A DNA stretch of 26,830 nucleotides. Origin: Candidatus Desantisbacteria bacterium CG1_02_49_89. GTDB taxonomy: Bacteria; Desantisbacteria; UBA1551. The stretch covers positions 1 to 26,830 of the forward strand of contig MNUP01000083.1 of NCBI GenBank assembly GCA_001871075.1, in the 5' to 3' direction. The first letter of the stretch is position 1. Every line of letters starts with the position of its first letter. A program made the position numbers and the translations under genes. The notes beneath the pieces are model-generated. The model saw only the letters and a program-made list of their open reading frames with translations, was not told where the DNA came from and did not search any database. Positions 2 to 25,308 of the stretch are shown here, piece by piece.

Positions 2-727
2 ATTGACTGCAGTGGCCAGTTGCCAGTTGTCAGCGAGATAAAAAAGGAAGAGAAACCCAAAGCCGAAGCAGTGAAGCCGAAAGCGGAGGCAGCAGGGGAA
101 CTGGGGGAAGTGTTCAGGGACGATTTTAGCAAGGGCGCGAAGAACTGGGATGTTCTCGGAGGGGAATGGGAGGTAAAGGACGGCAAGTATTTCGGGGCTG
201 AACTGGACGGGGGCAACGCCATTACTTATGCGGCCAGCGCGGCGGACATCGAGGCGGGCGCTTTTGAGGTGAAGGTTACCGTGACAGAGCGGGCTTTCGC
301 TGAGCAGTGGGCGTTCTTCGGGATAATAATAGGCACCGACGCTTCCAATTTCTGGCTGCTCGGTTTCACGGAAGGGCCTGCGCAGGAGCATTACGTGGAT
401 TTCCTTGAGAGCCTGGAAGGCACGTGGCAGGCGCAGAGCGAGGCAGCCACAAAGCTTAAGGCAAAGAACGAAAAGGACATGTACTTCAAATGGGAATACA
501 ATAAAGAATATAAGTTCAGGCTTGAGATGGGCGCGGACGGCATAACCGGCAAGATCGTAGATCTCAAGAAAGACAGCGTGCTGGCGCAGAGGACATGGGT
601 GTTCGGGGAGATGACCGCGGTCAGGATGGGCAAGCCCGGCCTGATATCAAGGGGCATGAAGGGTTATTATAAGGACGCGGTGGTGCTGGGCAAAGGCGTA
701 AAAAAAAATCTGAAGGATCTGCGATGA
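2..727 (+). CDS. N-terminal jelly-roll part of a secreted multidomain glycoside hydrolase (5' end outside window, frameshifted at 3' end)
   Basis: The frame is open to the window edge, so the true start (and any signal peptide) lies upstream; the TTG at 20 is only the first start-like codon. After a K/E/A/P-rich linker comes a beta-rich domain (DDFSKGAKNWDVLGGEW onward, about 190 aa) of the concanavalin-like LamG/DUF1080 type, usually carbohydrate-binding. It aligns from end to end with the N-terminal domain of the intact paralog at 7223-11452 (DDFTKGARDWEVIAGDW). The frame ends four bases into the next gene (ATGA overlap). A run of nine A's at 700-708 precedes the stop. Read in the -1 frame it continues VKKKSEGSA, matching VKKSEGTP of the paralog, so this ORF and the next were probably one gene. 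Confidence 0.8.
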   Translation: MDCSGQLPVVSEIKKEEKPKAEAVKPKAEAAGELGEVFRDDFSKGAKNWDVLGGEWEVKDGKYFGAELDGGNAITYAASAADIEAGAFEVKVTVTERAFAEQWAFFGIIIGTDASNFWLLGFTEGPAQEHYVDFLESLEGTWQAQSEAATKLKAKNEKDMYFKWEYNKEYKFRLEMGADGITGKIVDLKKDSVLAQRTWVFGEMTAVRMGKPGLISRGMKGYYKDAVVLGKGVKKNLKDLR

Positions 728-3700
728 AAACAGAGGAAGAAATGGCAAAACCCAAACCAGCTTTGAAAATAGAGGACGGAAAAGAAGGCAGGATCGCGGT
801 CCTGAAGGACGGGCTTCCCGGAATGGACCAGCAAGCGGTTGAACAGGCCGCGGCAGCCCTGCGCGCGAAGGGATTCGGCGTCACATTCCTTTCAGCTGAG
901 GATGCCTGCGGGGAAGACCTGAGCCGCGATAATTTTTTCCTTTACGTAATACCCAATTCAAGGTATTACCCGGCTAAGGGGATAGAGGTGCTGAGGAAAT
1001 ATATCCGCGGCAAAGGGAGCCTGGTCACGCTGGGCGGGCCGGCGTTCAAAAATATGCTGTGGAAGCAGAAGGTGGCGGGAAAGGACCAGTGGCTGGACAG
1101 GGAATCCTTCATAGAGCTGCTTTCAACTACCAAGCAGGAGAACATTTTCCTCAATTTCGAAGAAGACGATTTTTCCGGCTGGCAGCCTGCTACGAACGAG
1201 CCGGGCTCGGGTTCAATGGAGGCTGCGGCAGGCGGGGTTAAAGGCAAATGCCTGAAATTCGACATCTCAAACCTGAGCGGGTGGAGCACGTATTATTCAC
1301 CTTCCATCGACGGGATGTTCCCTGAGGGGCACGGCCTGCTGTGCTTCTGGGCAAAGGGGGACGACAAAACCCCGATGATGATAATAGAGATGAACGAGCA
1401 GGACGGGTCCAGGTGGATAGGGACCGTGAAGCTCACGGCCGGGTGGAAATACTACGTGATGTCGCCTGAGGAATTCCCCTACTGGCAGGATTCGCCCACG
1501 AAGGACAAGAGGGGGAAGCCCGGGGATTATTTCAATCCAGAGAACGCGGTAAAGATCAATTTCGGGATAGCGTTCAGCCACACGCCGATGGGAGGGGGGG
1601 CGCACACTTTCTGGATGGACGAAGTCGGCACCGCGAAGAATCCTTTCGGCAAGTTCGAGCAGGGGATGATGAGCGCTCCGCTTGTTATCGAGGCGATCTC
1701 GCCTTCATACAAGGTTTACAGGACAATGGAGCCGGTTTCTTCGGTTGCCGCGGACCAGGGCCAGGTAATAATAGACAAAAATACTTCTTTCGCCGCGCCT
1801 TCGGATTTTGTGTGCCCGGTGCACAGGCCTGTCGGGTCCGGCTACAAGAACAAACGCAGGCTGCGCTGGATCCCGCTTGCGAAATGCTTTGATAAGAACA
1901 AGGAAGAAAGGGGCGCCGTGATCTCAATTCTCGTGAACAACGCCCCGCCCTTCAAGGGCTCGATGTTCGCCGCCTTCGGAATGAACGACCAGGGGCTTTA
2001 CAAAGATGAGGCAGTGAAATCCGCGCTCGCGGAGGTCTGCCGCAGGATCAGGGACGGAATTTTCCTTTTTGAGGCAGGTTCCCAGTACTTCTCCTATTAC
2101 CCCGGAGAGGACGTTACGCTTGGGGCTGATGTCGTTAATTTCGGCGAAAAGGACGCGGACGTAACGGTAAGAATACAAATTATCCCCTCACCCCCATCTC
2201 AATCTTCCCCCGTCCCGCCCAGTAAAATTGGCGGGCAAGCCAAGGGGGAAGAGGATAAAACTAATGTAGCGGCAGGGCTTGCCCTGCAGCCTGTTTTTAA
2301 AAATGAATATAAAATTTCCTTGAAGGCGGGCCAGACCGGGTCCGCTGAATTCGCCTGGAGCCTTAAAGATCCGAAAGCGGACCTCTACGTTGTCAGGACC
2401 GAGCTTCTCAGGGACGGGAAGGTCATTGACGTTATAACCCACGAAATGGGCGTTCTGTCTGACAAGAAGCCCGCTCCGGATGATTTCGTTACGGTTAAGG
2501 ACGGCAATTTCTGGCTGAACGGGAAAAAATGGTATCCGGTGGCAATCAATTTCTGGCCCCTATATATTTCGGGCACTGAGCCGGGTGAATACCACCTTGG
2601 CTGGATCGACCCCGCGTACTACGAGCCGGCTGAGCTTGAGAAGGACCTTGAAAGGGCGAATGCACTGGGAATGACCATGCTCAGCGTCCAGATGGGCGGT
2701 AAGGGGAATGCGAGGAACCTTATGGATTTCCTGCGCCGCTGCGAAAAGCACGGCATAAAGGTGAACGGGTTCCTGAACGGCGCGTCTCCAATTGACTTCA
2801 ACGAGAAAACGGTAAGGGAATTCATGGAGGCCGGCAAATTAAAGGATAACCCCGCTGTTTTTGCCTATGACATAATCTGGGAGCCGGGCAATTCCATGTT
2901 CAATGCCGATGGCAGGAAGAGATGGGCAAAAGACTGGCAGGCATGGATAAACGAAAGGTACGGAAGCCTTGATAACGCTGAGGCGGACTGGGGCTTCACC
3001 ATACAGAAGGACGGCGCCAAAGCCCTGCCTCCAACAGACCAGCAGATGTCGCAGGACGGGGAATGGCGCGTGATGACAGCGGCTTATAGAAGGTTTATGG
3101 ACGACCTTATGAGCAGGAAGTGGAACGACGCGCACAGGAGGATAAAGAAGTACGATCCCAACCATCTTATAAGTTTCAGGCAGGGCAACACCCTTCCGCA
3201 CGATTTCGCTCTCACTGCCTGCTGCAAGCATATCGATTTCATATGCCCGGAAGGATATTCCATATCGAATTCAGATGACGGGTATAACGCTGCAGGCTTC
3301 ATAACCCGTTACGTCAACTTTACAACCCGGGGCAAGCCGATCTACTGGGCTGAGTTCGGGCAGAGCGTCTGGGATGGCTCAAGGATGGAGCCAAGCCTGT
3401 CCGCGATGAAGTCACAGGCTGAATACCATGACAGGTTCTACAGGATGGTGCTGGAAGCCTACGCGGTCGGCACAGCTCCCTGGTGGTGGCCGGGCGGTTA
3501 CAGGGTGGACGAGAAAAGCGATTACGGCATTATAAACCCTGACGGCACATTCAGGCCTTCGGCGCAGCTTTTAAAGAAGTATTCGCCGCTCATGCAGCAG
3601 GACAAGGCTTTACGCGTGCCTGACCACTGGATCACGTTTGACAGGGACACCCACGCAGGCGGCTACTGGTACATGGCTTTCCACGACGGCAAGGACGAGT

Positions 3701-4206
3701 ACAAGAAAGCGGTTTCATCTCAGAAGGTCCTGGGCATAAGATCCCCGGGTACAGGCATGAATTCCGCAAATGTCCTGCTGAAAGCAGTGGGAAACACCGC
3801 GTATAACGGCAAAAACCCGCCGAAATACCTTAACGCCGAGTTCAACTGGGTAAAGATAAAGGACGTAACAGGGGAATGGCAGGATATTTATTCAAGCAAG
3901 ACCATAGAGGTTGAAAAGGGAAAGCCGGTCCTGGCACAGGCAAGCATGGGGAACCTGGGTGAGGCTGAATGGTTCGCGCCCGCTCTTCATCCCGGCGCCG
4001 GAGGCGTGTGCCTCGGGTCCAGGGAAGGGGACGTGAAATTCAGCCAGCCTGTACCGAAGGATACGCTGTACCTCGCTGATGCCGTTATCGCGGAATTCAA
4101 GATTTGCGACGGAATAACAAGGGACGCGAAGGTCGTTTTTGAGATGAACGCGAAGGACCGCTGCTGGTTCGGCGAGAAACTAACAATAACCTTGATACCT
4201 AAATAA
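724..4206 (+). CDS. Multidomain glycoside hydrolase, clan GH-A-like TIM barrel (C-terminal part of a frameshifted gene)
   Basis: 1160 aa if started at ATG 724, which has AAGGAT 7 nt upstream but no signal peptide. Domains: Rossmann/flavodoxin-like (about 20-115), beta-sandwich carbohydrate-binding-like (about 140-305), an Ig-like region (about 465-590), TIM-barrel hydrolase (about 590-960), beta C-terminal domain. In clan GH-A a Glu after strand 4 is the acid/base and a Glu after strand 7 the nucleophile; the best candidates are E720 (IIWEPGN) and E877 (YWAEFGQ). WINERYGSLDNAEADWGF recalls GH5/GH42-like enzymes; the exact family and substrate are unknown. Collinear with the protein at 7223-11452, ending DRCWFGEK versus DRAWFGEK. 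A proline-rich stretch from about residue 487 to 522 is absent from the paralog and is encoded by palindromic repeats. The missing signal peptide fits this being the 3' part of one frameshifted gene. Confidence 0.85.
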   Translation: MKTEEEMAKPKPALKIEDGKEGRIAVLKDGLPGMDQQAVEQAAAALRAKGFGVTFLSAEDACGEDLSRDNFFLYVIPNSRYYPAKGIEVLRKYIRGKGSLVTLGGPAFKNMLWKQKVAGKDQWLDRESFIELLSTTKQENIFLNFEEDDFSGWQPATNEPGSGSMEAAAGGVKGKCLKFDISNLSGWSTYYSPSIDGMFPEGHGLLCFWAKGDDKTPMMIIEMNEQDGSRWIGTVKLTAGWKYYVMSPEEFPYWQDSPTKDKRGKPGDYFNPENAVKINFGIAFSHTPMGGGAHTFWMDEVGTAKNPFGKFEQGMMSAPLVIEAISPSYKVYRTMEPVSSVAADQGQVIIDKNTSFAAPSDFVCPVHRPVGSGYKNKRRLRWIPLAKCFDKNKEERGAVISILVNNAPPFKGSMFAAFGMNDQGLYKDEAVKSALAEVCRRIRDGIFLFEAGSQYFSYYPGEDVTLGADVVNFGEKDADVTVRIQIIPSPPSQSSPVPPSKIGGQAKGEEDKTNVAAGLALQPVFKNEYKISLKAGQTGSAEFAWSLKDPKADLYVVRTELLRDGKVIDVITHEMGVLSDKKPAPDDFVTVKDGNFWLNGKKWYPVAINFWPLYISGTEPGEYHLGWIDPAYYEPAELEKDLERANALGMTMLSVQMGGKGNARNLMDFLRRCEKHGIKVNGFLNGASPIDFNEKTVREFMEAGKLKDNPAVFAYDIIWEPGNSMFNADGRKRWAKDWQAWINERYGSLDNAEADWGFTIQKDGAKALPPTDQQMSQDGEWRVMTAAYRRFMDDLMSRKWNDAHRRIKKYDPNHLISFRQGNTLPHDFALTACCKHIDFICPEGYSISNSDDGYNAAGFITRYVNFTTRGKPIYWAEFGQSVWDGSRMEPSLSAMKSQAEYHDRFYRMVLEAYAVGTAPWWWPGGYRVDEKSDYGIINPDGTFRPSAQLLKKYSPLMQQDKALRVPDHWITFDRDTHAGGYWYMAFHDGKDEYKKAVSSQKVLGIRSPGTGMNSANVLLKAVGNTAYNGKNPPKYLNAEFNWVKIKDVTGEWQDIYSSKTIEVEKGKPVLAQASMGNLGEAEWFAPALHPGAGGVCLGSREGDVKFSQPVPKDTLYLADAVIAEFKICDGITRDAKVVFEMNAKDRCWFGEKLTITLIPK
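2184..2290 (+). repeat. Palindromic repeats inserted in frame in a hydrolase gene
   Basis: Two nested palindromes. CTTCCCCC (2204-2211) pairs with GGGGGAAG (2244-2251) around CCCGCC...GGCGGG. The inner hairpin at 2214-2235 recurs with 2 mismatches in 22 nt at 14217-14238 and 14288-14309. A second hairpin, CAGGGC-TT-GCCCTG (2273-2286), lies in a 25-nt segment (2262-2286) matching the intergenic copy at 25268-25292 at 22 of 25 positions. The insert keeps the frame open and adds about 35 residues that the paralog lacks. Confidence 0.8.
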
Positions 4207-7093: not shown

Positions 7094-7200
7094 CTCGTTC
7101 ATCGTGCTTCGTGCATCGTTCATCGCTGAAATAATATCCAGTAACAGTGTCCAGTATCCAGTAAAGACAAAATTCGCGGAAATTCGTGCTAATTCGTGGT
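7094..7200. repeat. Intergenic word repeats (CGTTCATCGTGCTTCG, CCAGTATCCAGTAA, AATTCGTGCTAATTCG)
   Basis: Three different degenerate tandem words lie one after another: CGTTCATCGTGCTTCGTGCATCG; TATCCAGTAACAGTGTCCAG; GGAAATTCGTGCTAATTCG. No ORF or clear terminator is visible. The CGTTCATCGTGCATCG word recurs at about 11455, 18884, 18967, 19815 and 20995. Confidence 0.7.
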
Positions 7201-7222
7201 TAAAATGTATTTAGGGGGAAAA

Positions 7223-10200
7223 ATGCGTAAAATAATATTTTTAGTTCTAATAACGTTTTTAACTTTCAACTTTCAACCTTTAACTTTTAACTGCGCGCCA
7301 GCGCAAGCGCAGGACAAGCCTCTCTGGTCCGACGACTTCACCAAAGGCGCCAGGGACTGGGAGGTCATAGCCGGCGACTGGGAAATAAAGGGCGGGAAAT
7401 GCCTTATAGCCGAACCGGCGCAGGCGTGGATCGTTTCCAGCAAGGCGCCTGACCTGGAGCAGCAGGTCCTGGAAGTGAAGATGACCGTGCAGGAAAGACT
7501 GAGCGAAGACGGCTGGTCTGTCGCCGGAATAATGATGTGGATAGACGCGGACAATTATTTCATGCTGGGGTTCACTGAGGCGCCTGATAAAAAACAGCAC
7601 TACATAGATTTTCTTGAGAACCTCGGCGGGAAATGGCAGGCTCAGCAGGAAGAGGGCACAAGGCTTAAGGCACTGAAGGAAAAGAACATGGCGCTGAACT
7701 GGAAATACAACACGGAATACAAGCTGCGTTTCGAGCTGGACAAGAAGGGGGTCACGGGAACGGTCCTGAACCCAGAAACGGACAAGGTTATTTCCCAGAG
7801 ACGCTACGAGTTCGGTGACGCGGAGGCGATACGCAGCGGCAGGTTCGGCATGCTTGTATGGGGCCAGACTGTTTCATACAGGGAACCTGCTGTCTGGAAA
7901 ACGCTTCCGGCTGTTGCGCCGGCTGCTGCTGCTCCTGCGGCTGTGCCGGCAACTCCGGCAGAGGTGAAGAAAGAAGTGAAAAAATCCGAAGGGACCCCTT
8001 TGGGGGAGGAGCCTGCTGCGGCTGCTGAACAGAAGAAGGAGGATGTTGTGAAAAAGAAATTTTCGGAAAAGATCGCGATCTTCGTTGAGCCTGACCTCGG
8101 GGCGGATAGATCCGCCGCGGAATCCTTAAAGAGCGCCCTGGACCAGGCAGGCCTGAAATCCAGGCTTATCAGCGGGGACGAGCTCTGCGACGGGGATTTT
8201 TTCAACCGCGGTAATTTTGACGTCGTAATTTTTCCCGCGGCAAAGACCTACCCCGCGGCCGGAGCGGCAAACATAGAGAAATTCCTCGCGAAAGGCGGCA
8301 ACCTTATAGCCGCGGGGGGGATCCCTTTTTCGAACCCCGCATGGAAAAAGGACAACAGGTGGATGGACAAAGAAACATTCATGCGCAGGCTCGCGGAAAT
8401 AAAAACAGAGAACATGGTCTTTGACTTTGAGGACGGAGACGTTTCAGGCTGGCAGAGAGGAGCCAACGATATGAATTCTCCCTCTGCGTTTGAGGTCCAG
8501 GACGGCGGTTTCAAGGGTTCCATGAACAGCCTGCTCATTGATATCGAGAACCTGTCCGGCTGGGATACCTGGAGGAAGGATTTCTCGGTCCCTCAGGGGC
8601 ACAACCTGTTCTGTTTCTGGGCGAAAGGCGACGACAGGACCGGGATGGTCTCGATCGAATGCGTTGAGGACGATTCTTCCAGGTGGATAGCAAGCGTCAG
8701 GATCTCGGACAAATGGGAAAAATACGCCATCTACCCGGAGGAGTTCAAATACTGGAAGGACAACCAGAGCAAGGGAAGGGGCGGCCCGAAGGACACGGTA
8801 AAGTTCGAGAACGTGAATGCTATTTCCGTGGGGCTTTCTTTCACGCACACGGCCGCGGTGGGGCCTGGACGGCACAGGCTCTGGATGGATGAGATAGGGA
8901 CCACCCAGAACACGCTTGGGAAACTTGACCAGCACAAGGAAATGGTTATCGACGGTCTGTGCCCCGCTTATAAGATGTTCCCGATGACGAATTACGCGTC
9001 AGCGAAGGTGGATGCTGGCCAGCTTTTTGTGAAGGACGCGGCAATACCCCGGGTCAAAGACCCGTTCTCATCAAGCCCCAGGCCCAAAGGGACCGGGTTC
9101 GGCAAGAAAAGAAGGATGCGTTTTATACCGTTGGTCAACGCCTATGACAAGAACGGCAAAAGATGCGGTTACCTTGCGTGGATGTTCGTCAACAATTTTT
9201 CCCCGCTGAAGGGCAGCGCGCTTGCCTGCCTCGGCATCACCCAGCAGGAGCTTTTAAAGGACAAAGCGTTCGCCGGGATGATCATTGACCTTGCGAAGAA
9301 GATGACGGACGGCGTTTATCTTTACGAGGGAGGGTCCCAGCTGCCTGTTTATTACCAGGGAGAAAGCGTGAAACTCGGGGCGCAGGTCGTGAATTTCGGC
9401 CAGAGTGAAAGCCAGGAACTTATTGCGCGGATAAAGGTCAAGCCCAGGGGTAAAGAAGAGATCGCTTTCCAGAAAGAACTGCCTGTCGTGATCGCGGACA
9501 AATCCATATCCGTGGATTGCGCCTGGGAGCCGGGCAAGTTCGCGGACAGGCTCTACGACGTCACGACCGAACTCGTCAGGAAAGGCCAGGTAATAGACAT
9601 GGCGCGGCAGGAACTGCAGGTATGGGAGCCAAAGCCGCTTGAAAAAAGGAATTACATGACCGTGAAGGACGGGGATTTTTACCTTAACGGAAAGAAATGG
9701 TACGCGCACGGCGTTAACTATATGTGCTCGACCGAAATAGCCATAGAGGACGGGGAGTATTTCGAGCAGTACTTGAGCGCACGGTCCTACGATCCCGATA
9801 TAGCGGAAGAGGACCTGGACAGGATGAAAGAAATGGGAATGAATATGGTCAGTATTTTTATATACCATCCCGCGCACAAGGCGCGCAACACCCAGGACCT
9901 TATGATGAGAAGCGAGAAACACGGAATAATGGTGAACCTTTCACTGCGGCCCAATGCCGATCCCCTGATGTTCAAGTGGAAGGAAGTAAAGGGGATGATA
10001 GAGGATATGCGCGCGGCTGAGTTCGACGTTCTTTTCGCCTATGACCTTGCCTGGGAGCGCACCTGGGGCACGTACGAATCCAGCTACGGGAACGCGAAAG
10101 GCAGGAAAGGATATGACAAAGAATGGGAGAAATGGATCATAGAAAGGTACGGCAGCATAGAGAACGCTGAAAAAGATTGGGAATTCCCGATCCCCAAAAA

Positions 10201-11452
10201 AGGCAAGGCAATCACCGGTCCGTCCGACCATCAGGTGCGGGAGGAAGGCGAGTGGCTGAAAATGGTCAGCGCTTACCGCAGGTTCGTGGACGACTTCGTG
10301 AGCAAGAAGTGCACTATCGCGACGCGTCTCATAAAAAGCATTGATCCGTACCATTTTGTGAGTTTCAGGATGGCGCATTCAGGCGATCCCACTGTCGCGC
10401 CCGAGGCATACGGCTACGATTTCAGGGCGTTCAGGTCCTTTGAGCTTGTGGAGCCTGAAGGGTACGGCAGGATAGGTGACTGGAACCGGGTGCGGGACGG
10501 AGCGTTCACCACCACTTACGCGAGATACACCGCTCCGGGAAGAGCGGTGATGTGGGCTGAGTTCGGGAACACGTCATGGTCAGGCACGAATTTCGGCCTT
10601 GCCCCTAACGTTGAAGCAGGCAAGGGGAAGCTTTACGACGATTTCTACAAAATGATAGTTATTTCCTATGCGAACGGAAGTTCATGCTGGTGGTTCCCGG
10701 GCGGGTTCAGGTTCGGGGAGAACAGCGATTTCGGGATAATAGGCCCTGACGGCTCCTGGCGCCCCACAACAGAGATGATAAGCAAATACGCGCCGCAGAT
10801 CACAACCCCGCGCCCGATGCCTGAAGTGGCAAAGTGGTTCGTGGTGGACAGGGACCTGACAGTGCGGGGGATAGCCGGAGTTTACGAAAAGATAAAGGAC
10901 GAATACTGGAGACTGCTTGACGCGGGCAAGTTGCCCGGGCTGAAAGACGAGGCAACAGGCACGAATTCGCTGAACACTCCCTTGAAAGCTGTGGGGAACG
11001 TGGAGTATAACGGCACAAACCCGCCCAAGTACCTGAATGCCGAGTTTAACTATGTCAGGATAAAGGTTGGAGTAGAGCCTTCCCTGCCCGCCAACGTATT
11101 AGTGGAGGGAGGCTCGTGGATTGAAGTTGAGGATGGCGCTCAAATAGAAGTTGCGGCCGGTGCTCCGGTGCAGTGCGTTGCATCCGCGGGAAATCTGCAG
11201 TCCGCGGCATGGATCGCGCCTGCGAATGCGAAGGGCGCGAAAGGCGCGGTTTACCTCTCAACCCCGAAAGAATCCGAGATACAGGCAAAGGCCGGGATAG
11301 CGAAAGACGCACCCTATTTTGCGGACGCGGATGTTCCTGAGTTCTTGCTGAGCAAGGGCATAAGCAAGGAAACGAAGGTGGTCCTGCAGATGACCGCGCT
11401 TGACCGTGCCTGGTTCGGCGAAAAGATCGAATTCACCCTGGTACCTAAATAA
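7223..11452 (+). CDS. Secreted multidomain glycoside hydrolase, clan GH-A-like (intact paralog)
   Basis: The start is ATG 7223 because AGGGGG lies 5-6 nt upstream and the protein then begins with a signal peptide (basic MRK, hydrophobic core, AQA/QD cleavage near residue 29); 1409 aa. Domains: jelly-roll LamG/DUF1080-like (about 33-230), A/P/E/K linker (about 232-283), Rossmann/flavodoxin-like (about 284-385), carbohydrate-binding-like beta sandwich (about 397-565), Ig-like (about 720-810), TIM barrel (about 812-1190), beta C-terminal domain. Putative catalytic glutamates are E945 (DLAWERTW) and E1113 (MWAEFGNT), equivalent to E720 and E877 of the upstream paralog. WWFPGGFRFGENSDFGIIG is shared almost exactly. 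Likely acts on a polysaccharide outside the inner membrane; substrate unknown. Part of the signal-peptide coding sequence (7260-7292) consists of the genomic word AACTTTCAAC. Confidence 0.87.
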   Translation: MRKIIFLVLITFLTFNFQPLTFNCAPAQAQDKPLWSDDFTKGARDWEVIAGDWEIKGGKCLIAEPAQAWIVSSKAPDLEQQVLEVKMTVQERLSEDGWSVAGIMMWIDADNYFMLGFTEAPDKKQHYIDFLENLGGKWQAQQEEGTRLKALKEKNMALNWKYNTEYKLRFELDKKGVTGTVLNPETDKVISQRRYEFGDAEAIRSGRFGMLVWGQTVSYREPAVWKTLPAVAPAAAAPAAVPATPAEVKKEVKKSEGTPLGEEPAAAAEQKKEDVVKKKFSEKIAIFVEPDLGADRSAAESLKSALDQAGLKSRLISGDELCDGDFFNRGNFDVVIFPAAKTYPAAGAANIEKFLAKGGNLIAAGGIPFSNPAWKKDNRWMDKETFMRRLAEIKTENMVFDFEDGDVSGWQRGANDMNSPSAFEVQDGGFKGSMNSLLIDIENLSGWDTWRKDFSVPQGHNLFCFWAKGDDRTGMVSIECVEDDSSRWIASVRISDKWEKYAIYPEEFKYWKDNQSKGRGGPKDTVKFENVNAISVGLSFTHTAAVGPGRHRLWMDEIGTTQNTLGKLDQHKEMVIDGLCPAYKMFPMTNYASAKVDAGQLFVKDAAIPRVKDPFSSSPRPKGTGFGKKRRMRFIPLVNAYDKNGKRCGYLAWMFVNNFSPLKGSALACLGITQQELLKDKAFAGMIIDLAKKMTDGVYLYEGGSQLPVYYQGESVKLGAQVVNFGQSESQELIARIKVKPRGKEEIAFQKELPVVIADKSISVDCAWEPGKFADRLYDVTTELVRKGQVIDMARQELQVWEPKPLEKRNYMTVKDGDFYLNGKKWYAHGVNYMCSTEIAIEDGEYFEQYLSARSYDPDIAEEDLDRMKEMGMNMVSIFIYHPAHKARNTQDLMMRSEKHGIMVNLSLRPNADPLMFKWKEVKGMIEDMRAAEFDVLFAYDLAWERTWGTYESSYGNAKGRKGYDKEWEKWIIERYGSIENAEKDWEFPIPKKGKAITGPSDHQVREEGEWLKMVSAYRRFVDDFVSKKCTIATRLIKSIDPYHFVSFRMAHSGDPTVAPEAYGYDFRAFRSFELVEPEGYGRIGDWNRVRDGAFTTTYARYTAPGRAVMWAEFGNTSWSGTNFGLAPNVEAGKGKLYDDFYKMIVISYANGSSCWWFPGGFRFGENSDFGIIGPDGSWRPTTEMISKYAPQITTPRPMPEVAKWFVVDRDLTVRGIAGVYEKIKDEYWRLLDAGKLPGLKDEATGTNSLNTPLKAVGNVEYNGTNPPKYLNAEFNYVRIKVGVEPSLPANVLVEGGSWIEVEDGAQIEVAAGAPVQCVASAGNLQSAAWIAPANAKGAKGAVYLSTPKESEIQAKAGIAKDAPYFADADVPEFLLSKGISKETKVVLQMTALDRAWFGEKIEFTLVPK

Positions 11453-11725
11453 CGTTCATCGTGCATCGCCCTGGCGGGTCGCGCATCGTCAAAAATAACC
11501 ACAGAGGCACAGAGGCACGGAGAAAAATTTCCACGAAAGCACTCCGCCCGTCTTCCAGCGGGCGAGACTTCGCCCACCTGAAAGGATGGGTGAGGAAACC
11601 ACGAAGGCACGAATGATTCAACTTCTTCCTCTCCCTTGACGGGAGAGGAAAGAGGTGAGGGTGGATTAAGCGTAACTCAGGGCTTTTCGAAGACCCGCCA
11701 ATCTTTAAGGAGGGAGCCCTGATTA
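11453..11725. repeat. Gene-free 296-bp gap made of nested repeat elements
   Basis: In order: CGTTCATCGTGCATCG words; CCACAGAGGCACAGAGG words; a hairpin cluster (CCGCCCGTCTTCCAGCGGGC, then GGCGAGACTTCGCCC) interrupting the CCACGAAAGCAC...CCACGAAGGCAC word; a CCTCTCCCTTGACGGGAGAGG palindrome at about 11630-11651 followed by AGAGGTGAGGGTG; and an inverted repeat TCAGGGCT (11677-11684) / AGCCCTGA (11715-11722). No gene is visible. Confidence 0.7.
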
Positions 11726-14201: not shown

Positions 14202-14340
14202 GAAATCGGGGCGTAGCCCGCCCAGCAAGATTGGCGGGTAAACTCCTCAAAAGTGGAATTGTCATAATTCGGGAAATCGGGGCGTAGCCCGCCCAGCAAG
14301 ATTGGCGGGTAAACTCCTCCTGTTTAGCGCACACGCTTAC
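14202..14340 (+). repeat. Two tRNA-Pro-derived mosaic repeats
   Basis: An exact 47-nt direct repeat at 14202-14248 and 14273-14319 (71 bp apart). Each copy begins with the first 11 nt of the downstream tRNA (CGGGGCGTAGC) and continues into the CCCGCC...GGCGGG hairpin and TAAACTCCTC. The second copy also carries TAGCGCACACGCTT (14325-14338), an exact 14-nt match to tRNA positions 14404-14417. It therefore looks like a tRNA whose D-loop was replaced by a hairpin element. No functional cloverleaf can form. Confidence 0.8.
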
Positions 14341-14383
14341 GGCGGGTAAACTGTAAAAGTGGAATAATCGTTAATCAGTGAAT

Positions 14384-14457
14384 CGGGGCGTAGCGCAGCC
14401 TGGTAGCGCACACGCTTGGGGTGCGTGGGGTCATGGGTTCAAATCCCGTCGCCCCGA
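14384..14457 (+). tRNA. tRNA-Pro (anticodon GGG)
   Basis: A complete 74-nt cloverleaf can be drawn. Acceptor CGGGGCG pairs with CGCCCCG; D stem GCGC/GCGC with loop AGCCTGGTA; anticodon stem CACGC/GCGTG with loop TTGGGGT and anticodon GGG at 14418-14420; variable loop GGGTC; T stem ATGGG/CCCGT with TTCAAAT loop; discriminator A at 14457. CCA is not encoded. The GGG anticodon reads CCC/CCU proline codons. Confidence 0.96.
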
Positions 14458-14598
14458 TTGATTTTCTGCTTTGCAGAAAATCTGGAGTCCCGATGTTACA
14501 TCGGGACGGTCTATTGCTCAATTTTCTATTTTCGGAAAGATTTGTCGCCACTTCGGCGACCCGCCGATGAGGCGGGAAGCCAACTTTCGCGCATCCAT
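14446..14598. repeat. 153-bp direct repeat, copy 1 (begins in tRNA-Pro 3' end)
   Basis: Identical to 14743-14895 apart from one base (C at 14454, T at 14751), offset 297 bp. It starts with the last 12 nt of the tRNA, then TTTTCTGC-TTT-GCAGAAAA and GTCCCGATGTTACATCGGGAC hairpins and a CCCGCC-GATGA-GGCGGG hairpin. Short ORFs through it are translation artefacts of a tRNA-associated repeat. Confidence 0.9.
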
Positions 14599-14742: not shown

Positions 14743-14895
14743 CCGTCGCCTCGATTGATTTTCTGCTTTGCAGAAAATCTGGAGTCCCGATGTTACATCG
14801 GGACGGTCTATTGCTCAATTTTCTATTTTCGGAAAGATTTGTCGCCACTTCGGCGACCCGCCGATGAGGCGGGAAGCCAACTTTCGCGCATCCAT
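14743..14895. repeat. 153-bp direct repeat, copy 2 (border of the AT-rich island)
   Basis: The second copy of the repeat at 14446-14598. It carries a 12-nt duplicate of the tRNA 3' end (CGTCGCC-T-CGA, one mismatch). Base composition drops sharply to AT-rich immediately after its end at 14895. Confidence 0.9.
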
Positions 14896-15639: not shown

Positions 15640-16857
15640 ATGATGAAAAACCCAATTTTTATTTCAGAATTAATTCTAAAAAGGTTCAGAAGCATTCTTT
15701 CTGCTAAAATCCCTTTTGAAAATCTAACTTTTTTAGTCGGTAGAAATGGAGCTGGGAAAAGTAACATTGTAGATATATTTCAATTCCTTTCTGACTTAAT
15801 GACTGTCCCTTTAAAAGCAGCTCTTGATACACGCGGAGGATTAGATGCAGTTCGTCATAGAAGTTCTCAAAGAGGTTATCCTGCTAGTATGGGTTTAAGA
15901 TTAAATTTTACTATACCTATGTCAAATAATATTAAAAAAAAAGGAATGTATGCTTTTGAAATAAAAGCACTTCCTAAACACCAATTTGAGGTAGTTAGAG
16001 AACAATGTAGATTAGAAGGAAATCAAGAATTTGAATGGTTTGATCGCCACGTTACTTCTTTTTCATCGAGTTTGGGACTTAAACCTTCACTTGATCCCCA
16101 ATCCCTTGTTTTACCTATTATTGGTGGCACTTTTGAATTTATGCCAGTTCTAAAATCAATAGCTTCTATGCAGGTTTATTCTATTGTGCCTTCTCAAATA
16201 CGTGAGCTTCAATCTCCAGATAGCGGGCTAAGGTTGCAATCAGACGGAAGTAATATAACTAGTGTATTGCAGGAGCTACAAAGATCACACGAAGATGTAT
16301 TTAAAAACTTGGGTGAATTATTAAAAGCAGTAGTTCCTGGAATAAATAGCGTTCGTACTAAAAAGCATGCAAAAAAGTTATCTTTAGAATTTACACAATC
16401 ATGGAGTAATGGAAAAAATGGGCAAAAAAGCAAAGAGATAAAATTTGAATCTTTTTCAATGTCAGACGGAACTCTTAGGGCAATCGGTGTTTTGACTGCT
16501 CTTTTACAACAACCGATTCCGTCACTTATAGTAATAGAAGAACCAGAAGCAACTATTCATCCAGGTGCTCTCGGAGCACTTATGGATGGCGTTCGAACTT
16601 CATCAAGAAATACACAGATTATTTTAACAACTCATTGCCCAGAAATACTTGATTTTAAATGGCTTAATCCAGATCAAATTAGAGTTGTTGATTGGCAAAA
16701 GGGAGCTACGCAAGTCTATAAACCATCTCAAGCTGCTATCGAATCGGTAAGGAATAATTTAATGGGATTAGGTGATCTTATGAGGAGCGGTATTTTAGAA
16801 AGTGGCAATGAGCTTTTTGAACCGCATATAGCTCAACTTAATTTATTTGAGGATTAA
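15640..16857 (+). CDS. AAA/ABC-type ATPase (AAA_21, SMC/RecF-like) of a putative defence system
   Basis: 405 aa. GTG 15634 is part of the ribosome binding site AGAGGTG, so ATG 15640 (or 15643) is preferred. Walker A is GRNGAGKS at 34-41; an ABC-like signature S275-D276-G277 (SMSDGTLRAIGVL); Walker B LIVIEEPE with E300/E301; and a switch His H332 (TTHCPEIL). These order the protein as a head-domain ATPase like OLD, RecF and AriA, without a long coiled coil. Its stop is 2 nt before the next gene, a DUF4276 protein. ATPase plus TOPRIM-like pairs are typical of anti-phage systems, where the ATPase senses or scaffolds and the partner cleaves nucleic acid. The defence role here is inferred from family and context. 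Confidence 0.88.
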   Translation: MMKNPIFISELILKRFRSILSAKIPFENLTFLVGRNGAGKSNIVDIFQFLSDLMTVPLKAALDTRGGLDAVRHRSSQRGYPASMGLRLNFTIPMSNNIKKKGMYAFEIKALPKHQFEVVREQCRLEGNQEFEWFDRHVTSFSSSLGLKPSLDPQSLVLPIIGGTFEFMPVLKSIASMQVYSIVPSQIRELQSPDSGLRLQSDGSNITSVLQELQRSHEDVFKNLGELLKAVVPGINSVRTKKHAKKLSLEFTQSWSNGKNGQKSKEIKFESFSMSDGTLRAIGVLTALLQQPIPSLIVIEEPEATIHPGALGALMDGVRTSSRNTQIILTTHCPEILDFKWLNPDQIRVVDWQKGATQVYKPSQAAIESVRNNLMGLGDLMRSGILESGNELFEPHIAQLNLFED

Positions 16858-16859
16858 AA

Positions 16860-17519
16860 ATGGAGCCATTAATAATTCAACCCATAGTTGAAGGACATGG
16901 TGAAGTAGATTCCGTAGGGATTCTTTTAAGAAGAATGCTTGCTGAAATTCAAATATATAATGTTTTTATAAAGAGACCAATGCGTTGGCCCAAAAGCAAA
17001 CTTATAAATGTTGAGGAATTAAAAAAACGAGTTCAGCTAGCAAATATAAATTTGGGTGCAGCAAACAAAAAAGCTATTATTATAATATTCGATGCTGATG
17101 ATGATTGTCCACGTGATTTGGTAAACAGACTTTTGGGACCAGTAAAAGTTGTTGCGGGAAACACACCTTGTACAATTATAATAGCAAAACATGAATATGA
17201 ATCTTGGTTTTTAGGTTGCATAGAAAGCTTGCGAGGAAAAAGATCAATTAATACCGATGCAACCTTTAATGAGGATCCTGAAAATATTAGTGGGGCAAAA
17301 GGTCGTTTAGAGGAGATGATGAATCGTTCTTATCAGGAGACAACCGATCAAGCAGCACTTACTGCGCAAATGAATTTTGAGAACTGTTATCAAAATTGTC
17401 GGTCTTTTCGTAAATTGGCGAAAGATATTTTCGTAATAGTTCGTGATTTAGGATACGTTTATTTTACAGAAACTAATTGGGGAAATTTAATTGCTAACGA
17501 GATAAGAAATAATGTATAA
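16860..17519 (+). CDS. DUF4276 family TOPRIM-like protein
   Basis: 219 aa, starting 2 nt after the ATPase stop and overlapping the next gene by 8 nt. The N-terminal strand-turn PIVEGHGE gives E11-G12 and E15. IIIIFDADDD gives D78, D80 and D81. Together these make the acidic TOPRIM-like metal site. HEYESWFLG (E112, E114, W116) is the characteristic DUF4276 motif. TOPRIM folds in OLD and AriB proteins act as metal-dependent nucleases. Direct coupling to an ATPase gene suggests it is the effector or a regulated subunit. Nuclease activity is inferred, not shown. Confidence 0.85.
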   Translation: MEPLIIQPIVEGHGEVDSVGILLRRMLAEIQIYNVFIKRPMRWPKSKLINVEELKKRVQLANINLGAANKKAIIIIFDADDDCPRDLVNRLLGPVKVVAGNTPCTIIIAKHEYESWFLGCIESLRGKRSINTDATFNEDPENISGAKGRLEEMMNRSYQETTDQAALTAQMNFENCYQNCRSFRKLAKDIFVIVRDLGYVYFTETNWGNLIANEIRNNV

Positions 17520-21116: not shown

Positions 21117-21716
21117 ATGTTTACAGGCATTGTTAAGGAATTGGGCATAATAAAAGGCATAGCCCGGAAAGGGCTTTCGATAGAGATCACGGTCCAGTCA
21201 TGCCTTGCGAAAGGCCTGAAGCCCGGTGACAGCGTTTCAATAAACGGGGTATGCCTCACGGCCACGGAAACCAAAGATGGCGAATTCAGGGTTGACGCGG
21301 TCGCTGAAACCCTCGGAAAAACAACGTTTGGGAACCTGGGGGTCAGGGAAAAGGTTAACCTTGAGCCGGCTCTTGCCTCAGGCCAGCCGATGGGCGGCCA
21401 TATCGTGAACGGCCATGTGGACGGCGTTGGGATAATCAGGAGCAGGATCCAGAAAGGTAATTCGGTTATTTTTGAGTTTTCCCTTCCTTCAGAGGTCCGC
21501 GGGCTGTCAAAATATATCGTGGACAAAGGCCCTGTAGCGGTTGACGGCATAAGCCTTACTGTTGTCGAGGCTAAAACCTACGCGTTTACGGTTTCCGTCA
21601 TCCCTTTTACCATAGAAAACACGACCCTTGGTTTCAAGAAAGTCGGTGAAAAGGTTAATATCGAGGTTGATATTATTGCCAAATATGCAGAAAAAGCGGG
21701 TAGCCGCAACCTTTAG
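21117..21716 (+). CDS. ribE: Riboflavin synthase, alpha subunit
   Basis: Dismutates two 6,7-dimethyl-8-ribityllumazine molecules to riboflavin. 199 aa with the invariant MFTGIV start and two lumazine-binding repeats: repeat 1 has GDSVSINGVCLT; repeat 2 begins at MGGHIVNGHVDGVG and has GPVAVDGISLT and SVIPFTIENTT. Length is normal for the trimeric enzyme. The last codons (GSRNL and the stop) belong to a palindromic repeat at 21699-21749, so the C-terminus after VDIIAKYAEK was rewritten by the element. It stands alone, without ribD, ribBA or ribH, and I see no FMN riboswitch upstream. Confidence 0.96.
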   Translation: MFTGIVKELGIIKGIARKGLSIEITVQSCLAKGLKPGDSVSINGVCLTATETKDGEFRVDAVAETLGKTTFGNLGVREKVNLEPALASGQPMGGHIVNGHVDGVGIIRSRIQKGNSVIFEFSLPSEVRGLSKYIVDKGPVAVDGISLTVVEAKTYAFTVSVIPFTIENTTLGFKKVGEKVNIEVDIIAKYAEKAGSRNL

Positions 21717-21749
21717 GTTGCGTGGCGCGGACTAAAGTCCGCGGCTACC
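21699..21749. repeat. 51-bp three-way-junction palindrome covering the ribE stop
   Basis: The outer stem GGTAGCCGC/GCGGCTACC is perfect (9 bp) and encloses two perfect hairpins: GCAACCT-TTAGGTTGC and CGCGGACT-AAAGTCCGCG. The ribE stop TAG (21714-21716) lies in the first hairpin loop region. It looks related in style to the GTAG-GGCAAGGC and GTAG-GGCAGAGC hairpins at 25225-25292. Confidence 0.85.
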
Positions 21750-25223: not shown

Positions 25224-25292
25224 CGTAGGGCAAGGCTTTAGCCTTGCGTTATTGTCTTGTAAGCATGTAATGTAGTGGCAGAGCTTGCTCTG
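25224..25292. repeat. Two GTAG-type hairpin repeats
   Basis: GCAAGGCT-TT-AGCCTTGC (about 25230-25248) and CAGAGC-TT-GCTCTG (25279-25292) are perfect hairpins, each preceded by GTAG. The second, with its flank (25268-25292), matches 22 of 25 nt of the in-gene copy at 2262-2286. One stem pair differs by a compensatory change (G-C versus A-T). Confidence 0.8.
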
Positions 25293-25308
25293 TATAAGGA
25301 GTAAAAAA

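Follow-up and report, generated by a model that had tools for sequence, protein, structure and literature searches.

The window, a 26,830-nt stretch of the CG1_02_49_89 genome, carries at 724-4206 (+) an open reading frame for a glycosidase-like protein of 1160 residues, as judged from the ORF call, its paralogs and a structure model. According to sequence comparison, this host protein belongs to a paralog family within the same genome, and the segment at 2184-2290 is read in frame within its gene. A profile search of the host protein against NCBIfam gave no match, and neither did a search against the contig collection for related loci. Across 145 genomes, no ortholog of the host gene was found in the same order, the only matches being paralogs from the genome itself and two weak ones. 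Two full paralogs both lack the segment, which accounts for 29 extra alignment columns, the absence being judged from paralogs at approximately 40% identity; this agrees with a preliminary description of the DNA, which reported about 35 residues missing from the paralog.

Repeats in the host gene and its neighborhood

The segment is composed of three repeats, A, E1, and E2. The left part of element A (CCCCTCACCCCCATCTCAATCTTCCCCC, 2184-2211, +) ends in the arm TTCCCCC at 2205-2211, and its right arm (GGGGGAAGAGGATAAAA, 2244-2260, +), with GGGGGAA from 2244, pairs with 2203-2211; the same tail is present in a copy on contig C104 (L051/L120). The loop of A holds the E1 palindrome CCCGCCCAGTAAAATTGGCGGG (CCCGCC...GGCGGG, 2214-2235, +), giving a nested fold. 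E2 follows (GTAGCGGCAGGGCTTGCCCTGC, 2266-2287, +), a 22-nt GTAG REP consisting of GTAG, CG, and a 7-bp hairpin, and read as VAAGLAL(Q). The DNA of the 107-nt insert folds as these hairpins (z = -3.24), and none of 200 shuffled sequences folds as well. Both of the hairpin elements recognized in the preliminary description are thus in place, the arms around E1 being a third family, A, which it had not separated. The left motif of A recurs elsewhere with short loops and without E1 (L120:288, L121, L135, and 11622-11661 on the reverse strand of the window), the loops being GTCTAA, GTTAGA or, by motif comparison, GTCAA at 11622-11661. Since copies of A without E1 exist, A with E1 represents a nested insertion, and we infer the order in which A, E1, and E2 were inserted.

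Neither E1 nor A has a 5' GTAG or CGTC tag: GT precedes most E1 copies, and A begins with CCCTCACC. From their sequences, both appear to be palindromic repeats outside the REP class, without the GTAG tag and with no transposase assigned to them. An Rfam search of the whole window matched only a tRNA.

E1-like palindromes also occur in the loops of other hairpins, for example at L091:986, L111:4482, L089:2606, and around 11676-11725 (-) of the window. Flanking arms of at least 7 bp surround 11 of 25 E1-like copies, compared to 168 of 4000 random positions (binomial p ~2e-9), and the remaining copies lie within tandem arrays of 7-8 nt units. In hycI and in L142, the nesting goes one level deeper. 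Insertion into REP sequences is known from the elements IS1397 and ISPpu9 (PMC1525189, PMC8450116), from which E1 differs in being a gene-free palindrome of about 27-30 nt found in the loops of several different hairpins.

Other parts of the window contain related units. Exact copies of the E1 consensus lie upstream of tRNA-Pro at 14217-14238 (+) and 14288-14309 (+), where the preliminary description had placed relatives. Two repeated 47-nt units upstream of the same tRNA (14202-14320 and 14383-14458) begin with the tRNA-like CGGGGCGTAGC followed by E1, as if they were partial tRNA-Pro copies interrupted by E1. Directly after the tRNA-Pro gene, a 153-nt direct duplication (14446-14598 and 14743-14895) is 99% identical. 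A GTAGC REP at 21700-21722 (+) supplies the last codons and the stop (..SRNL*) of a riboflavin synthase-like ORF (21117-21716), and forms a REP pair with a second GTAGC REP in the opposite orientation (21726-21748, -). Two intergenic REPs occur at 25225-25247 (+, GTAGGGCAAGGCTTTAGCCTTGC) and 25272-25293 (+, GTAGTGGCAGAGCTTGCTCTGT), the latter being an E2-type REP.

In-frame palindromes are present in all three paralogs compared, each at a different site. The paralog at 7196-11452 carries one at 11072-11115 (+), made of GTAG and a stem with an E1-like loop, which encodes 12 residues absent from the other paralogs, and the insert of the C104 paralog combines A/E1 in reverse with one REP (22 alignment columns). 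These inserts are independent of one another. At the site of 2184-2290, a more distant homolog (L104) carries another repeat, SNCKMQN.

In an AlphaFold2 model built from five sequences (mean pLDDT 77.9), residues 58-83, within the insert, have a pLDDT below 50 and lie between strands 42-52 and 89-97. Foldseek matches of the model are beta-sandwich domains of glycosidases (glycoside hydrolases). The insert lies in a loop of an Ig-like beta-sandwich domain, and the model fits a flexible loop. The loop whose surface exposure the preliminary description proposed to check is a low-confidence stretch between two strands; its exposure is only probable, as a low pLDDT alone is no proof of it.

E2 as a member of the REP/RAYT class

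Among the 256 tetranucleotides, GTAG ranks first on the 5' side of hairpins of at least 8 bp in CG1_02_49_89, with 49 occurrences for about 4 expected (11.8x). E2 has such an unpaired GTAG at 2266-2269, adjoining its hairpin, and its family has the traits of REPs, namely a palindrome of 20-40 nt, high copy number, and covarying stems. Genome-wide, the E2 core (at most 2 mismatches) has 40 matches against 2 in the reversed control (forward 25 versus 2, reverse 15 versus 0), corresponding to about 35 places given that some palindromic places match on both strands; E1 has 39 matches against 0 in its control. These numbers are far above chance. The reading of intergenic palindromic repeats inserted in frame holds. 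We also counted REP-like elements in 791,513 bases of CG1_02_49_89 (0.79 Mb of 2.48 Mb; 159 versus 30 in the reversed control) and in 608,055 bases of its nearest sequenced relative, CG1_02_38_46 (0.61 Mb of approximately 1.7 Mb; 169 versus 15). The family is mostly extragenic, only 24 of the 159 and 27 of the 169 lying in any ORF of at least 120 residues, spurious ORFs included.

For covariation, all occurrences of a 5' prefix were taken first and pairing was scored afterwards, which avoids selecting for pairing. With prefix GTAACTCA, 60 of 83 occurrences pair at all five tested positions and 63 at four or five, a bimodal distribution, and the perfect stems are of about seven types (GGGCT, AACCT, GACCT, AGGCT, AAACT, GGACT, and GGCCT). 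With GTAG[CT]GG in CG1_02_38_46, five or all six pairs are formed in 91 of 192, the stems comprising 20 combinations, whereas control prefixes gave 0 or 1 paired. Selected by prefix only, elements thus show nearly perfect pairing in a wide variety of stems; the covariation is therefore real, and hairpin structure is maintained across families, which is silent on any single site. The preliminary description had argued for maintained structure from a 25-nt pair, 2262-2286 and 25268-25292. This pair has exactly the three differences described, two of which form a compensated G-C to A-T stem pair. Nevertheless, as paralogous repeat copies, the two sequences bear on maintenance across the family and not at 2184-2290.

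RAYT genes are present in the genome, with ten Pfam Y1_Tnp matches. Two RAYTs of 163 residues on C23, above the NF047646 cutoff, lie inside GTAACTC REP arrays, and on account of these arrays we rejected them as partners of E2. On C57, inverted copies of GTAGCTGCAGGGCTTGCCCTGC directly enclose a RAYT gene at 16575-17003, and the downstream one adjoins its stop codon; PF01797 alone missed this gene, which came to light only when a profile of the short RAYT subfamily was used. E2 at 2266-2287 and these flanking REPs are identical except for one of 22 positions. The layout outlined for REPtrons is that of a RAYT gene between inverted REPs (PMC2817692, PMC3733652), and TnpA-REP proteins are described as using GTAG plus a palindrome (PMC8266576). 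The C57 RAYT with its inverted E2 copies has this REPtron layout, and we classify E2 as a REP of the REP/RAYT type.

Short RAYT genes in other genomes (L310 1456-1914 (-), L319, L326, L332, and L357) contain REPs of their own type in frame inside the transposase ORF. These occur at shared protein sites, KNI-VVAELALL-KEQF in L310 and likewise in L319 and L357, with no change in length relative to REP-free homologs. This may reflect overprinting, or REPs may have originated in RAYT genes. The exact 22-mer GTAGYGGCAGRGCTTGCYCTGC is found, among the matches listed (L195-L274), in Nitrospinae, Planctomycetes, Brocadiales, Elusimicrobia, WOR-3, Ratteibacteria, and more, which suggests that it has spread across phyla along with RAYTs.

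Coding repeats in two Desantisbacteria genomes

In-frame REPs occur in about 11 genes in the 0.79 Mb of CG1_02_49_89 and in 12 genes in the 0.61 Mb of CG1_02_38_46. In the former, they are found in gltX, hycI (two), fmt, a leuC-like gene, apbE, thrC, and a fused AmmeMemoRadiSam B/A ORF (two), as well as in a small secreted protein (L122), a glycosidase-like ORF (L104), the ORF at 724-4206, and its C104 paralog. In the latter, they are found in dprA, topA, ispE (seven tandem units), pstB, asd (at least four), oppD (two), thrC, the nrdG activase gene, hypF, apbE, trpE (two), and miaB. NCBIfam named most of these genes, many above cutoff, while trpE, miaB, and the CG1_02_49_89 thrC were named by sequence and alignment. 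Many candidates embedded in antisense or spurious ORFs, lying upstream of the start, or formed by chance hairpins were excluded (e.g. L109, L188, and L335, and matches in Ensifer and Mycobacterium). The inserts are absent from solved homologs in four proteins: Asd (39 residues between 179 and 186 of 2qz9), TopA (37 residues between 456 and 461 of 6ozw), GltX, and Fmt. E2 is free of stops in five of its six frames, and none of the in-frame copies uses the frame containing TAG. In L123 (7814-9409), AmmeMemoRadiSam B and A share one open frame and are joined by two REPs, possibly a gene fusion made by REPs. Among the matches listed, the exact 22-mer lies in credible genes in 8 of 25 cases in the two Desantisbacteria genomes, compared to about 3 of 66 in other phyla (Fisher p = 0.001); with gene credibility judged by eye, this enrichment is only suggestive.

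Since the same repeats are in frame in many well-known genes of both genomes, we consider that minute selfish DNAs are becoming part of proteins. In particular, we regard it as highly probable that 2184-2290 is a pile of small non-autonomous repeats which landed in a permissive coding loop, and that E2 is a GTAG REP whose mobility most likely depends on a RAYT. The RAYT, a REP-associated HUH/Y1 tyrosine transposase, would recognize 5'-GTAG and the hairpin in single-stranded DNA and move E2, whereas E1 would be carried in the hairpin loop of A. Recognition and copying of hairpins alone would, we propose, explain why the copies retain complementary stems. With five of six E2 frames open and the total insert preserving the frame, a flexible loop of the protein would be longer by about 30-35 residues and the protein would stay usable, and frame-breaking insertions would be removed by selection. 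It is presumably a RAYT that moved the copy at 2266-2287 itself, and the effect of the insert on the protein is probably near neutral. Neither a transposition event nor a polymorphism was seen in the two genomes compared.

The preliminary description called for empty sites in relatives. The host gene has no ortholog in CG1_02_38_46, and consequently 2184-2290 has no empty orthologous site there, whereas miaB, which carries a REP in CG1_02_38_46, has a clean empty site in CG1_02_49_89. At other orthologous sites, the nrdG activase gene, hypF, and dprA have a REP in CG1_02_38_46 and 8-nt arrays in the other genome; asd and gltX have different palindromes in the other genome; and the REP of topA is matched by an acidic linker and that of ispE by a short linker. 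Arrays of GTGTCAAC-like 8-mers are read in frame as octapeptides of the RVNVSTCQ type (L139 6230 (-), L139 3469 (-), and L354 1027). From these comparisons, insertion sites are shared while their contents turn over. In thrC and apbE (80% and 66% protein identity, respectively), the REPs of the two genomes, which belong to different families, coincide in nucleotide position and phase, and these two genes provide the same-site evidence on structure: the thrC stem shows one compensated double change, and the apbE stems show two, together with one broken outer pair.

These two genes speak for the view that the hairpins are old residents selected for function, as RNA or DNA structure or as peptide, rather than passengers, given that the stem changes are mostly compensated and that coincidence at the same nucleotide in two of about ten ortholog pairs exceeds chance placement. 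We nevertheless consider this view rather unlikely. Other ortholog pairs hold unrelated repeats, other palindromes, an acidic linker (topA) or nothing (miaB), and since site contents differ, no single structure or peptide is kept; moreover, same-site hairpins would equally arise from insertions in parallel or from conversion by resident copies. In this comparison of two genomes, same-site hairpins may reflect ancestral presence, preferred targets or such conversion. A broader proposal, which we put forward as a tentative idea more apt to fail than to hold, is that REPs have been coding hairpins since the ancestor of the two families, their stems changing in a compensatory manner at the same codons in thrC and apbE, that E1 is a mini-element entering hairpin loops specifically, and that the cognate REPs inside the RAYT genes of one subfamily, present without change in length, hint at REP families arising from, or stored in, RAYT coding sequence.

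The likeness to Rickettsia palindromic elements (RPE-1 and others) drawn in the preliminary description is one of style, with in-frame palindromes in many unrelated genes and several open frames. By description, those elements have longer units, no GTAG hallmark, and no RAYT link, whereas the units here are 22-23 nt long, begin with GTAG or GTAA, and occur in a Desantisbacteria genome, outside the Rickettsiales, that contains RAYT genes, one of them flanked by E2 copies. The GTAG hallmark and the C57 REPtron refute this assignment for E2, and we consider it very improbable that the repeats are of the RPE type or a close relative. We give equally little credit to an assembly or binning artefact: the metagenome assembly is repeat-rich and in 150 contigs, but the pattern recurs in the separately deposited CG1_02_38_46, where other genes contain the same REPs, and frames remain open across inserts in conserved genes. 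Least probable of all is an ancestral protein loop whose DNA is palindromic by accident. This reading, the one that the preliminary description named as refuting its own, has in its favor only that the exact site at 2184-2290 lacks an ortholog and is refuted by copy numbers, the DNA units recurring tens of times elsewhere while the paralogs lack the residues and carry similar units at other positions.

Relation to known elements and implications

The repeats of Desantisbacteria, a phylum that is not among the hosts in the portions of PMC2817692, PMC3733652, and PMC8266576 used here, resemble the GTAG REP superfamily and REPtrons as outlined in those papers (Nunvar 2010, Di Nocera 2013, and PMC8266576, respectively) in their 5' GTAG, 7-9 bp stem, and 2-4 nt loop, as well as in their high copy number, arrays and inverted pairs, RAYT flanked by inverted copies, and REP-supplied stop codons. 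They differ from the elements outlined there in that several GTAG and GTAA families coexist, the tag of the C23 REPtrons being GTAA. Intragenic GTAG/CGTC REPs were already recorded in 2013 in Opitutus terrae, Thauera, Xanthomonas recB, and, as RPE-4/6, in R. conorii (PMC3733652). In the same account, RPE-4/6 are grouped with CGTC repeats without a dedicated transposase, RPE-1 is longer, and the recB genes of two Xanthomonas species have different REPs at about the same site. As in the cases outlined there, the inserts described here are in frame, often grouped, and encode 20-80 residues in conserved proteins; unlike them, they share their protein sites with nested E1/A palindromes and 8-nt arrays, and orthologous coding sites show compensated stem changes.

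In-frame GTAG REPs having been described in 2013 in other phyla, their kind is already known, and the Desantisbacteria case is a new, heavily loaded example of it; the nested loop insertion and the REPs inside RAYT genes are less familiar. Selfish hairpins in proteins are thus not peculiar to Rickettsia, as they occur in two genomes of a poorly sampled phylum, in conserved and probably essential genes. They call for caution in the annotation and structure prediction of such genomes. They also amount to natural experiments on insertion-tolerant protein loops, and the ortholog pairs allow the fate of a coding hairpin to be traced.
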